In this document: positions 15,279 to 57,691 of the stretch, piece by piece
How the letters are laid out: every line of letters starts with the position of its first letter
Numbering within the stretch: position 1 is the stretch's first letter
Origin: Aeoliella mucimassa
GTDB lineage: Bacteria; Planctomycetota; Planctomycetia; Pirellulales; Lacipirellulaceae
Direction of reading: 5' to 3'
NCBI RefSeq assembly: GCF_007748035.1
Contig: NZ_CP036278.1
Coordinates: forward strand, 496,001-560,000
DNA length: 64,000 nt
Made by a program: the position numbers and the translations under genes
Notes under the pieces: model-generated
Told to the model about the DNA's origin: nothing
Seen by the model: only the letters and a program-made list of their open reading frames with translations
Database searches by the model: none

Positions 15279-15962
15279 TTACCAGCACGAAGCGCGCGAT
15301 CGCATTACCGCGATACCTCCAGCGATGCCGAGCACTAACAACGCGGCAGTACCTGGTTCCGGCACTGGAACCGTCCAGCCGATGGTCGTCGTGGCCGAAC
15401 CATACGACGCAAGCGCCTCGCCGGTGGTCGGGTCGCCTAGATAGACCTCATAGGTCATGGAGTACTCGCCTGGCATGTCGGCCACGTACATGTCGTGCTG
15501 CATGTCGCCATCCCACATCCAGCGATCCCCATCGTTGAGATACAACGGCTGCATCGTCCAGTTTGCCATGCCCATTCCCATGCCCCCTTCGTACACGCGG
15601 AGCGTCGCGCCGGCCGGGGTGGTTTGATCCATCCGGCGAATCCAAATGGCCGAGTCTTCGGGCAGCACCACGATGTTGTCGAAGTTCCACCCGTACTGGC
15701 TGTTGAAGTACTGGTTCTCAATCACATCGAACTGGTCGGGTGTGTAGTCGACTCCCTCGCCGGACATCATGGTGACCATCGTGGTGGCTGCGTGCACGGT
15801 AACGCTCGACTCGTCGAAGTCGATCGAGAGGTGCTTCATGCCATTGTTGGCGACGATGCCATCGCCATTGGTGGCACTCGGCAGCGGTGGCAGCACCGCC
15901 CCCGCGTTGGCACCCAAGGCGAGCAAGGTAAGTAGTAAGAAGCTGGTACGTTGAATATTCAC
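15279..15962 (-). CDS. PEP-CTERM domain protein, paralogue of its downstream neighbour
   Basis: A 227-residue exported protein. It has a signal peptide (VNIQRTSFLLLTLLALGANA read with the GTG as Met) and a beta-rich domain with SQYGWNFDNI and MTYEVYLGDPTTGEALASYG. The C-terminal sorting signal is clear: VPEPGT, a hydrophobic helix and MRSRASCW. PEP-CTERM tails are recognised by exosortase. The GTG start at 15962 is chosen because AAGGA lies nine bases upstream and because the leader matches that of the downstream paralogue (both read CAACnAGGAACCAnCC before the start). Longer in-frame starts place extra charged sequence before the signal peptide. Confidence 0.85.
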   Translation of the reverse strand: MNIQRTSFLLLTLLALGANAGAVLPPLPSATNGDGIVANNGMKHLSIDFDESSVTVHAATTMVTMMSGEGVDYTPDQFDVIENQYFNSQYGWNFDNIVVLPEDSAIWIRRMDQTTPAGATLRVYEGGMGMGMANWTMQPLYLNDGDRWMWDGDMQHDMYVADMPGEYSMTYEVYLGDPTTGEALASYGSATTTIGWTVPVPEPGTAALLVLGIAGGIAVMRSRASCW

Positions 15963-16030
15963 TTGGCTGGTTCCTTGTTGAAATATCATGAGCTTGTTGA
16001 AGTGTTGTGAGAGAGTAGAGCGGTCGAACG

Positions 16031-16726
16031 TCAGCGCAGGCCGGCCATGCCGGGATCCCAGCGATCGATCGATTGCTCCATGTCGAACGTCTCGTTCAGC
16101 AGGTGCGACGAAACGTGTCCATCGACCCACAGGTAGTTACTGACGCCTTGATGTCGGTCGAAAGCCACTTCCGGCGCGCCGCCGAGTCTCCAAAAATGGG
16201 CCATGATGTGATCGGTGGTCGAGTCGGATAGTAACTCGCCGACCATTACCGTGCGGCTGGTCGACTCGATGCTCCGCAACCGATGGTAGGTGGGGCCTTC
16301 GCGCACCCCCTCCACGTTGCCGGTTTCGACCGACGTCAATTCGAACCACACGTTCTTGCCATAGCTCCAAAGTTGCAGGTTGTCGCGATCGTCCTCAGGG
16401 CATCGAAACGACTGGCGCATCAGCGCGTCGGGCAGGGGGCCCAAGGCTGGCTCGACCGTGGGGTCGAGGTACGGCGCAATCCGCTGCCCCCATTGGAACT
16501 CGCGATGGGCGAATGCCGAATGGCTGCTGCGAGGGAATCTGCCCTGGTTGTCTTCCAGAAACAGATGAAACGCCAAGCCGATTTGTTTGAGGTTGTTCGC
16601 GCACTCGGTCCGGCGAGCTGCACTGCGGGCCGCCTGAACTGCTGGTAGCAACAGCGCTACCAGCACTCCGATAATGGCGATCACCACCAGCAGCTCGACG
16701 AGCGTAAAGCCACGTCGAGTGGACAT
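16031..16726 (-). CDS. DUF1559 family pseudopilin-like protein
   Basis: A 231-residue protein starting [20 protein letters not shown]. This is a type IV pilin/pseudopilin prepilin-peptidase site (cleavage after the Gly of RRG, Phe as mature residue 1, Glu at +5) followed by one transmembrane helix. The rest is the DUF1559/H-X9-DG type domain seen in large numbers in planctomycetes: [18 protein letters not shown], then a C-terminal [14 protein letters not shown]. Role unknown. It is probably exported by a type II secretion-like system. GGAG seven bases before the ATG at 16726 supports this start. Confidence 0.88.
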
Positions 16727-16824
16727 AGAATCTCCTTCGCGCACGCTCTCACGTCAGGCCAAGCCAGGTCGGCAAGGCGCGCAGCTCGAGCGCGGTGAAT
16801 GCGGACAGTAAAAATTGTCGCGAT

Positions 16825-17457
16825 TCAGCTGATGTGCTGAGGAGGGGGCGTGGCAGGCTCGTAAGACATCGAGCTGCAAAGACTCCCAGCCAGCGGTACG
16901 AGTCGCTCAGGCGACGCGGCTGGCCAGGCTATTTGGATTTCGGGCGGAGTGGTCTTCAGCATGCAGAGCCACCACTTCAGCGTTCCGCCACAGGTGGCTG
17001 CTTGCCAGGCTGAGGTGCGACTGCAAGGCTCCGCGGCATCGGCGACTTCTTCCGTCGCAGCGGTTTCGGCGGATTGGCAACAGCAGCAACAAGGCTTGCT
17101 CGACTTGGTGCTGGTTGCACATGTCTCGGGCGAGCTTGTCGTCGACTCGCAAACGGTTGGTTCCTCGATCCAGGGGGCGACGTTCAGCCGTTGCTCGCGG
17201 GCTAGGGCCAGGGCGAACTCCGGCGGCCGCACACCTTCGTTGCGCGCCCACGCGAGGCGTTCGGCAAGCGTATGGCAGCAGCAGTTGGTCCAGCACACCA
17301 GCGCCGAATCGCAGCCGCAGCTACAGTTTTCGCACGGATAGCGTTCGATCGTGCGTTTCGCAATCCGCGGCAAGTCGAGCGGCACCCCCACCGCAGCGAC
17401 TGCGAAGGCAGTCAGCAGCAGCGCAGCGATGAATCGGCGGTGGCGAACCAGCGACAT
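16825..17457 (-). CDS. Exported cysteine-rich protein, function unknown
   Basis: A 210-residue protein with a hydrophobic N-terminal helix (FIAALLLTAFAVAAVGV) followed by unusually many Cys residues: CENCSCGCDSALVCWTNCCC, then KPCCCCCQS and further single Cys. The first cluster with CWTNCCCHTLAERLAWA looks conserved in style and could bind metal, but no known metal-binding family is recognised. The middle is Ser/Thr/Glu-rich. No clear ribosome binding site; the ATG at 17457 is preferred over a TTG four codons upstream. It lies between the DUF1559 gene and a large membrane protein gene on the same strand. Confidence 0.65.
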   Translation of the reverse strand: MSLVRHRRFIAALLLTAFAVAAVGVPLDLPRIAKRTIERYPCENCSCGCDSALVCWTNCCCHTLAERLAWARNEGVRPPEFALALAREQRLNVAPWIEEPTVCESTTSSPETCATSTKSSKPCCCCCQSAETAATEEVADAAEPCSRTSAWQAATCGGTLKWWLCMLKTTPPEIQIAWPAASPERLVPLAGSLCSSMSYEPATPPPQHIS

Positions 17458-20357: not shown

Positions 20358-20690
20358 CGGACTTGCCCACCAGCGAAGAGAATCGCTCGAGTGGTGCTGC
20401 CAGAGAGAACCCAGGCAGCACCACTGGAGACGAAAGAAGGATGCTGGGGATGGGTAAACGCAGCCGTCGTGCCAGAGCCGCGGGGGGAAGCTCGCGATGC
20501 GATGCAAGTGCTTGCGATTACGGCACTTAGGGCGTTTCGCCGCCCAATGCACCGAGTCGCTGGTGTGGCAAAAGCACCTCATCGCTGTGGGTGCGCGTCG
20601 CGGAAGTGCCACGTGTCGCTAGGAAGCAACGAGCCGCTTGCCGAGTAGCCGAGGGCAAACCGGTTCGACAATTGGGCCGTTTTTCGCTGG

Positions 20691-21277
20691 AAATTGGCCA
20701 CTGATAGTGGTCTAATGAATAGGTATTTGAGGCTTTTGGCTATCCGCTTTCGGCTGTTGGCTTTCGGTGAAAGGAGGTTTGCGAGATGTGATGCTTGTTT
20801 GAATGGCAGACTCATAGCGACGCGCAGGCGAATGGTTGCTGGCGTGGGCGCTGGCTGCTGCGCGTGTTGGTAATTTGGGTGATGGGGCTGCGTCGCTGTC
20901 GCTCCTGGACCGCATCCTACAACTTGCGCGTTGGTAATGCGTGTGAAGTGACTCGCTGAGATCTTTCAGTCGCTGGAAGCTCCCTCAAGATGACATCCCC
21001 TATCTCCTGACCCCCGAATCCTGACTCCTCCCAACAATAGTTTCCCACCCATGGGAATCTATTTTGGGCAACTATCGCGGAGGTGTTGATGCAACTTGTT
21101 ACCGGTCAACGACTTGCGATAGATTCCCATCGCGAAAATAGATTCCCACTCGATGCGTTTTGGGAAATGGGAATCTATTGGGGCGCGAAAACCGCTGGTT
21201 TTGCAGCGTGGGCGAAGATTCAATTTTCCCATCGGTGGGTAAATTGGGAATCTATTCGCACGGCGTGGGAATCTATT
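20691..21277. repeat. Composite intergenic repeat, copy A
   Basis: This gene-poor stretch shares four blocks, in the same order and orientation, with 46597-47119. (i) AATTGGCCAC followed by TCTAATG and AGGT at about 20691-20724. (ii) A segment with GTGATGCTTGTTT and AGCGACGCGCAGGCGAA at about 20750-20865. (iii) A REP-like block at 20959-20996. (iv) A 242-base core at 21036-21277. The core opens with AATAGTTTCCCA-CCCA-TGGGAATCTATT (a 12-base hairpin with one mismatch) and carries TGGGAATCTATT again at 21168, 21245 and 21266, plus inverted at 21138 and, without its last base, at 21119. Core A and core B have equal length with no gaps. Confidence 0.85.
20959..20996. repeat. REP-like dispersed repeat, copy 1
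   Basis: GATCTTTCAGTCGCTGGAAG followed by CTCCCTCAAGATGACAT. The same short block recurs at 37121, 38548 (inverted), 38672 and 46794. Confidence 0.75.
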
Positions 21278-46241: not shown

Positions 46242-46596
46242 GAATGCTAGTTCTTACCGCTATTTCACTTGGCTGACTGTCCGCTCGGAGGGGAGCTTTA
46301 GGTAGCCAGGAGTGTTGTCGTACTGTGTTTGACTGTGTGGGAAACTATTCTAGACACGGACGAACACAGATCATAACGGATGGGGCAGCCTCCTGGGCTT
46401 CGCCCACCGACAACTGGGCGTAGTGCGTTTTTCGGAGTGGCATCGCGTAGTGCGCCCGGCTGTCGGTGCTACCCAGTTGCTCCGCGGGCTCCGCGACTCT
46501 GCGTGAGAATGTTTACGGTCGCTCTTGTTCCACATCGCTAGCCATCGCTTTCGGCTGCGGGCTAAACGGTTCTTCGGATCTTTCCAGTTTTCACTG
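46242..46596. other. Intergenic stretch after the interrupted gene
   Basis: No convincing gene. TGGGAAACTATT at 46338-46349 is a single extra copy of the variant motif found inverted at the start of both composite repeat cores. The rest shows nothing that can be supported. Confidence 0.45.
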
Positions 46597-47119
46597 GGAA
46601 TTGGCCACCTGTGGTGTTCTAATGGACAGGTGGTTGTTGGCTGTCGGCTTTTTAGTGAATGGAGGTGATGGAGAGGTGATGCTTGTTTTCGTCTCAAACT
46701 TCTAGCGACGCGCAGGCGAAATGGTTGCTTGCGTGGGCGTTTGCTGCTGCGCGGTTGTGAAAGCTCTAGGCTTTAGGCTTTAAGCGATAGGCTAGATCTT
46801 TCAGTCGCCGGAAGCTCCTTCAAGATGACATATTCGCATTCCGCATTCCGCAATCCCCATTCGTGTCTCCTCCCCAGAATAGTTTCCCACCCATGGGAAT
46901 CTATTTTGGACAACTATCGCGGAGGTGTCGATGCAACTTGTTGCTAACAAACGACTTGTGATTGATTCCCACTGCGAAAATAGATTCCCACTCGATGCGT
47001 TTTGGGAAATGGGAATCTATTCGCAGCCGAAAACCACTGGTTTTGTAGAGTGGGCGGAGATTCAATTTTCCCATCGGTGGGTAAATTGGGAATCTATTGC
47101 TGTGTCGTGGGAATCTATT
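46597..47119. repeat. Composite intergenic repeat, copy B
   Basis: Shares with 20691-21277 the same four blocks in the same order. The REP-like block is at 46794-46830 and the 242-base core at 46878-47119. The core opens with the same 12-base hairpin (46878-46905) and has TGGGAATCTATT at 47010, 47087 and 47108 and inverted at 46979, the same offsets as in copy A. One inverted copy present in A is degenerate here. The core ends 52 bases from the stop codon of the histidine kinase gene, and the frame that runs through it continues antisense into that gene. Confidence 0.85.
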
Positions 47120-47170
47120 TGCCGAGCGGTGGGAAACTATCGCTCGCTGGCACTTGCAGGTGTCGCTTGG

Positions 47171-57255: not shown

Positions 57256-57691
57256 CCGGTACGAAGCTCCTCTCAAGGTACTGGCGATGGGCTCAAACTG
57301 GCGACGGGGTGGCTCTTTTGGCAAGCCAATTCCCGTATTTTGCCGCCGAAAGTGGCCAATAATCGCGCTGGATTTGCCGGAAGAGTTTGGTCTAATGGAG
57401 GATGGTCGGCTACCAGCGTGGTAGCGGCCCGAAGGGGCGGATTTCGCCCCACCCTGTAATCACCGCAACCAACTTGCGACAATGGTGCTCGATGTAAATA
57501 GTGCGTTGCAAACGACTTACGCAGCTTGGGTGCGACGTAAGAAATGCCCCCACCCATCGATTTTCCCGTTTTGGGGGCAAAACCACTTCGGGCGGAATCC
57601 CCGAAGCACCTGCGTTGCTACCACGAAACTAGTCGTACCCCTCGGGGTTTAACTTTCCAGGTCAACCGAACTAACAACCAACCAACACCAC
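57256..57691. other. Intergenic stretch before the sigma factor gene
   Basis: 436 bases. A TGGCCA and GGTCTAATGGA pair at about 57350-57400 weakly resembles block (i) of the composite repeats at 20691 and 46597. No gene, terminator or RNA is supported. Confidence 0.4.

Follow-up and report, generated by a model that had tools for sequence, protein, structure and literature searches.

Two copies of a composite repeat

The window, that is, the whole 64,000-nucleotide stretch of the Aeoliella mucimassa chromosome analyzed here, contains two copies of an element of about 0.6 kb that consists of a left block and a motif-rich core, the motif being the 12-base word TGGGAATCTATT. Matches to this word at up to two mismatches number 19 in the window, as against a mean of 1.99 and a maximum of 6 in shuffled sequences. 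The cores of copy A (21036-21277) and copy B (46878-47119) are both 242 bases long, and each opens with a hairpin of 12-base arms with one mismatch and a 4-base loop (arms at 21036-21047/21052-21063 in copy A and 46878-46889/46894-46905 in copy B). Four further exact motifs stand at the same offsets in both cores, one inverted (starting at 21137 in copy A and 46979 in copy B) and three direct (starting at 21168, 21245 and 21266 in copy A and at 47010, 47087 and 47108 in copy B). The equal cores, the hairpin and the matching offsets had been reported in a first-pass annotation and were all recovered when re-measured in both copies, as was the common block order, in which the left blocks (20680-20731 and 46584-46633) precede the cores. 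A single motif variant, TGGGAAACTATT, lies at 46338-46349, about 540 bases upstream of the copy B core. The features are as follows, with copy counts referring to the genome-wide family.

20680..20731, + strand: copy A left block, TTTTTCGCTGGAAATTGGCCAC..GGTCTAATGAATAGG; anchor present in 87 of 100 copies
20820..20864, + strand: copy A variable middle, inverted repeat ACGCGCAGGCGAA / GCTGCTGCGCG; in most copies
20960..20996, + strand: copy A optional middle module, GATCTTTCAGTCGCTGGAAGCTCC..AAGATGACAT; the region is an IS110-type insertion site in other copies
21036..21277, + strand: copy A core, 242 bases; 100 copies aligned
21036..21063, unstranded: hairpin 1, AATAGTTTCCCA-CCCA-TGGGAATCTATT; loop CCCA (39 copies) or, reverse-complemented, TGGG (30 copies)
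21065..21129, unstranded: linker with hairpin 2, formed from motif variants TGGGCAACTATC / GATAGATTCCCA
21137..21179, unstranded: hairpin 3, AATAGATTCCCA-(19 bases)-TGGGAATCTATT; stems near-invariant among copies
21187..21202, unstranded: hairpin 4, GAAAACCGCTGGTTTT; 115 genome copies at up to 3 mismatches
21217..21252, unstranded: hairpin 5 (right-hand), GATTCAATTTTCCCA-TCGG-TGGGTAAATTGGGAATC; most columns 93-100% conserved
21245..21277, + strand: copy A right end, two direct motifs at 21-base spacing; sharp element end after the last motif
46584..46633, + strand: copy B left block
46878..47119, + strand: copy B core, 242 bases
47130..47141, + strand: copy B third tail motif, TGGGAAACTATC
57353..57585, + strand: probable relic of an older subtype, assigned by eye, with left block TGGCCAATAATCGC..GGTCTAATGGA and core TGCCCCCA..TTTTGGGGGCAAAAC

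A family across the chromosome

The description of the repeat as two-copy applies within the window but not to the genome, as pooled pattern searches located at least 134 cores in the 6.6-Mb Pirellulales chromosome. The whole-genome search proposed by the first-pass annotation thus yielded further copies, and neither of the outcomes on which the proposal was to be given up, no more copies or a match to a known IS or MITE end, came about. The motif pattern TGGGAAWCTATY has 746 matches genome-wide and 1 in a reversed control, and the core sequence is matched at 87% or better in at least 40 places. Pattern searches of the genome with a conserved 24-mer, the linker hairpin and the left block returned 125, 115 and 106 copies, respectively; the 106 left blocks (at up to two mismatches) lie nearly all immediately upstream of a same-strand core, and the pooled positions include 5 left blocks without a core. 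The general plan is a left block (..TTTTCGCTGGGAATTGGCCACC..TTCTAATGGACAGG), a variable middle, the core with its hairpins and motifs in two orientations, and 1-5 tail motifs per copy, 20-22 bases apart, ending in a sharp right boundary beyond which the sequence is unique.

All 100 copies read in context with a simple gene caller are intergenic, the flanking genes being convergent in 30, ++ in 27, divergent in 26 and -- in 15. Where core orientation is known, 45 are on the forward and 83 on the reverse strand, a minus-strand surplus with P=0.001 that bears no relation to replication arm.

Comparison of 97 copies bore out the earlier remark that motifs stayed intact while linkers diverged, the majority base having a share of 97.9% in motif columns and 86% in other core columns. 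The closest pair of copies is 94.6% identical, so no copy looks recent. Private mutations per column are not significantly fewer in the motifs (0.33, against 0.50 elsewhere; P=0.15), and the motif constraint may therefore date from the time of spread; it looks like a need of the spreading phase and not like a function that each copy serves in the host, selection on the motifs after insertion being non-significant. Retrieval of copies through the motif biases the set towards intact motifs; a linker-based search gave no excess of copies lacking the motif. Linkage between variable sites is nearly lost beyond about 12 bases, with 99% of such pairs showing all four combinations, a sign of exchange among copies or of a long period of independent change. 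The pattern sits oddly with simple copying and calls for gene conversion or template switching. The presence of the hairpin 1 loop in both orientations (39 versus 30 copies) suggests that the hairpin forms and that its loop is occasionally flipped.

Spacing along the chromosome

The cores repel one another. Among the at least 134 cores, pairs closer than 10 kb number 3 where 27 are expected, pairs at 10-20 kb number 18 where 27 are expected, and spacing further out is random. The coefficient of variation (CV) of the spacing is 0.65, compared with 0.99 for random placement (P<5e-5). A 10-kb exclusion zone accounts for most of this regularity and little remains, the extra regularity being slight (P=0.011, or P=0.042 with soft exclusion). 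Copy density is flat round the chromosome, with gaps of up to 165 kb. A transposase between the closest pair, 3.1 kb apart, was considered, but the interval shows only an ordinary sulfatase-like gene. To our knowledge, few bacterial repeats show measurable self-avoidance over a whole chromosome. The exclusion range resembles that of phage Mu, whose cis-immunity peaks near 5 kb and tapers off from 5 to 25 kb (PMC7350765); the likeness is restricted to spacing.

Related elements with other motifs

No DNA-level match to the element was found among 58 relatives, and the exact motif, present 586 times in this genome, occurs 0-4 times in each of 195 relatives. The other GTDB genomes lack a core 22-mer, viral contigs lack a 19-mer, and searches of plasmids and of Rfam models gave no match; in these collections, the earlier statement that no element of this kind had been described stands. 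Elements of the same architecture, built on other motifs, do occur in two of three same-genus genomes, here called G001 and G003 (the MAG Pirellulales bacterium IP29b_bin.126). A scan for this architecture, defined as four copies of one 10-mer in both orientations within 300 bases, detects these elements but nothing in 400 kb from four other-genus genomes, and the third same-genus genome gave none over 120 kb.

In G003 the motif is AGTTTTGCCCCA where A. mucimassa has AATAGATTCCCA. The left block adjoins 6 of 9 G003 elements (0.2 expected, P=7e-8), and the linker word AACYYGTTRC occurs 5 times in 5.2 kb of elements and 8 times in the whole 227 kb sampled; the G003 P-values are optimistic because the linker word and the left-block pattern were picked after some elements had been viewed, and the remaining matches are still well over expectation. 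Since left block and linker word match those of A. mucimassa while the motif differs, the element is common to both. G001 is alike in architecture only: its motif, GTTTTGGGCCAA, has 70 exact copies there, none in the A. mucimassa genome and few elsewhere, a profile comparison of the A. mucimassa core with the G001 element gave no significant homology, and no left block turned up beside the G001 elements in the set tested.

The A. mucimassa genome itself probably retains an older subtype at 57353-57585, a relic whose core seems to carry a G003-like motif. At another locus (L256, 13126-13475) an older left block stands together with the A. mucimassa motif. The use of different words in sister species points to a word-reading protein that aided spread. 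At a locus of a further genus of the family (L175 in genome G014, 15420-17400), there is a cluster of a different local repeat made of CTCACGGAGTGAG palindromes.

Insertion sequences and the search for a partner enzyme

The Y1 proteins of the genome belong to an IS200-like element (six full and three truncated copies) and to two RAYT-type genes. The REP-type tyrosine transposase genes, two in number and intact (NCBIfam REP_Tyr_transpos), have their nearest copies at distances of about 2 and 10 kb, and a genome-wide Y1_Tnp search found no copy within about 2 kb of the RAYT-type genes. Of 11 Y1 proteins in G001, 3 have an element within 0.9 kb; the RAYT genes there (L248, L250, L251) have a different flanking hairpin, CACTGGCGAAGCCAGTG, with the motif element a few hundred bases off. 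A search with PF00665, whose matches all fall in frames of 334 aa (8 matches) or 374 aa (5 matches), found no large rve-type (Tn7/Tn402/IS21-like) transposase.

An autonomous copy with a gene of its own was considered and rejected, the inserts seen being IS110-, IS200- and IS5-type elements. At least four copies (L033, L066, L081, L100) have an IS110-type element at one identical site in their middle module, spanning about -1500 to -183 from the core, and a second insertion with IS110-like ends occurs in two further copies (L058, L110). These insertions are a natural example of a dispersed repeat that IS110 targets site-specifically; REP repeats likewise receive IS insertions (PMC1525189). Five of nine insertions of the IS200-like element lie directly beside the AATAGA end of the motif (L059, L119, L194, L197, L198), and the left halves of two of these copies (L059, L119), considered as a master element or a HEARO-like RNA, turned out to be the IS200-like insertion. 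A DDE (IS5-like) element lies just left of the core in three copies (L041, L048, L092), and its ends also occur in three more (L047, L113, L121). None of the ISs located within or beside copies has the ends of the element. No target duplication was seen, shared flanking k-mers being at chance level, and with no near-identical copies either, movement itself was not observed.

Origin and function of the element

We consider it slightly better than an even chance that the element is a non-autonomous, non-coding mobile repeat of about 0.6 kb, now mostly quiet, which excludes itself and whose sites are read by a co-evolving recombinase. A resident sequence-specific recombinase would read the 12-base sites in trans and would have moved the element from one intergenic place to another; an occupied site would make the surrounding 10 kb or so a poor target for a new copy, by analogy with transposition immunity. 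A change in the specificity of the protein would have led the sites of that lineage's element to change together, and the spread would now be mostly over. That left block and core travel together speaks for a mobile element, and the mild deficit of private mutations in the motifs fits a requirement during spread; against it, no partner enzyme is tied to the element.

The same facts can be read in terms of the host. The motif array might bind an architectural or segregation protein, with domain borders, anchoring or condensation as possible roles and copies kept at tens-of-kilobase spacing by a need of the chromosome. The spacing is slightly more regular than a 10-kb exclusion would give by itself, density is flat, motifs have been kept at more than 130 places without recent copies, and the tail sites lie two helical turns apart. 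Such a landmark nonetheless seems rather unlikely to us, given that the deficit of private mutations in motifs is not significant, that gaps reach 165 kb, that the element is missing from the other genera sampled and that orientation follows no rule by replication arm (56 of 100 copies on the leading strand, P=0.27, with arms inferred from GC skew). We give somewhat less credence again to its fuller form, a system of mutually excluding, protein-bound landmarks, about one per 49 kb, whose word (AATAGATTCCCA, GTTTTGGGCCAA or AGTTTTGCCCCA) changes at every copy from one same-genus species to another as it co-evolves with its binder, and which would be comparable, in bacteria, to the fast-evolving repeats of centromeres or insulators. 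That a RAYT (a tyrosine transposase of the Y1/HUH type) dispersed a REP/BIME-like repeat by way of hairpins in single-stranded DNA is unlikely too, even though the hairpins, strong on either strand (z about -6), the alternating site orientation, the want of target duplication, the IS110 targeting, the two resident REP_Tyr_transpos proteins and the proximity of Y1 proteins to elements in G001 would all suit it: no copy of the element flanks the resident RAYT genes, those of G001 are flanked by CACTGGCGAAGCCAGTG instead, the unit is about 600 bases long, the 12-base site is itself no palindrome, and no GTAG/GGAG foot was seen.

The first-pass annotation had proposed that the motifs are bound by a protein or fold in RNA. 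They do look like protein-binding sites, but the RNA alternative fared poorly. A transcribed structured RNA (terminator, attenuator or small RNA) would account for the stable folding and for the 30 of 100 copies that lie between convergent genes, yet we hold it very improbable, since both strands fold about equally well, a two-sided change occurs in only 1 of 43 predicted pairs, orientation towards genes is mixed and Rfam has no match. A protein-coding core was rejected, the best forward frame having stops in 38 of 100 copies and the variable columns showing, by eye, no third-position preference. With no coding, strand-specific fold or covariation, a gene or RNA is unsupported.

The case would amount either to target immunity on a miniature repeat or to a species-specific set of chromosome landmarks. 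The coordinated replacement of the word while other parts are kept offers a natural series in which to look for the protein and the change in its specificity.

Comparison with known systems

The element works like REP/BIME or BOX repeats, and it falls within the definition of no known family. Non-autonomous IS200/IS605 derivatives resemble it in their hairpins near the ends, in a full unit without terminal inverted repeats and in causing no target duplication, but the element has many copies of one site, and its ends differ from those of the resident IS200-like element, for which the motif (..TCTATT) serves as a target instead. It does not fit the definition of a MITE, as the core ends in an inverted motif pair while the full unit is without inverted ends, and no target-site duplication was seen. 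With the ends of phage Mu, Tn7 and Tn402 it shares arrays of short sites near an end and an apparent exclusion of new copies, over a range comparable to the 5-25 kb of Mu; unlike them, it has no TG..CA ends, no target duplication, and both site orientations in one core.

The BOX element of Streptococcus pneumoniae is similarly modular and intergenic and has a small internal unit in variable number, and in both cases no autonomous copy has been found, the likeness to boxA-boxB(n)-boxC being one of architecture (PMC3049150); the array of direct and inverted sites, the fixed 242-base core, the spacing rule and a motif that differs between same-genus species set the present element apart. From REP/BIME it differs in its unit of about 600 bases, in a 12-base non-palindromic site repeated 5-8 times and in strong mutual avoidance; no GTAG/GGAG-type foot was seen by eye in the 97-copy consensus, TGGGAATCTATT is not palindromic, and no RAYT flanks the element, whereas the RAYT of REP/BIME systems is flanked by the same repeat. 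Like REP/BIME, it is intergenic, is present in more than 100 copies of alternating orientation, forms hairpins, has a lineage-specific word and serves as a target for IS110-type elements.
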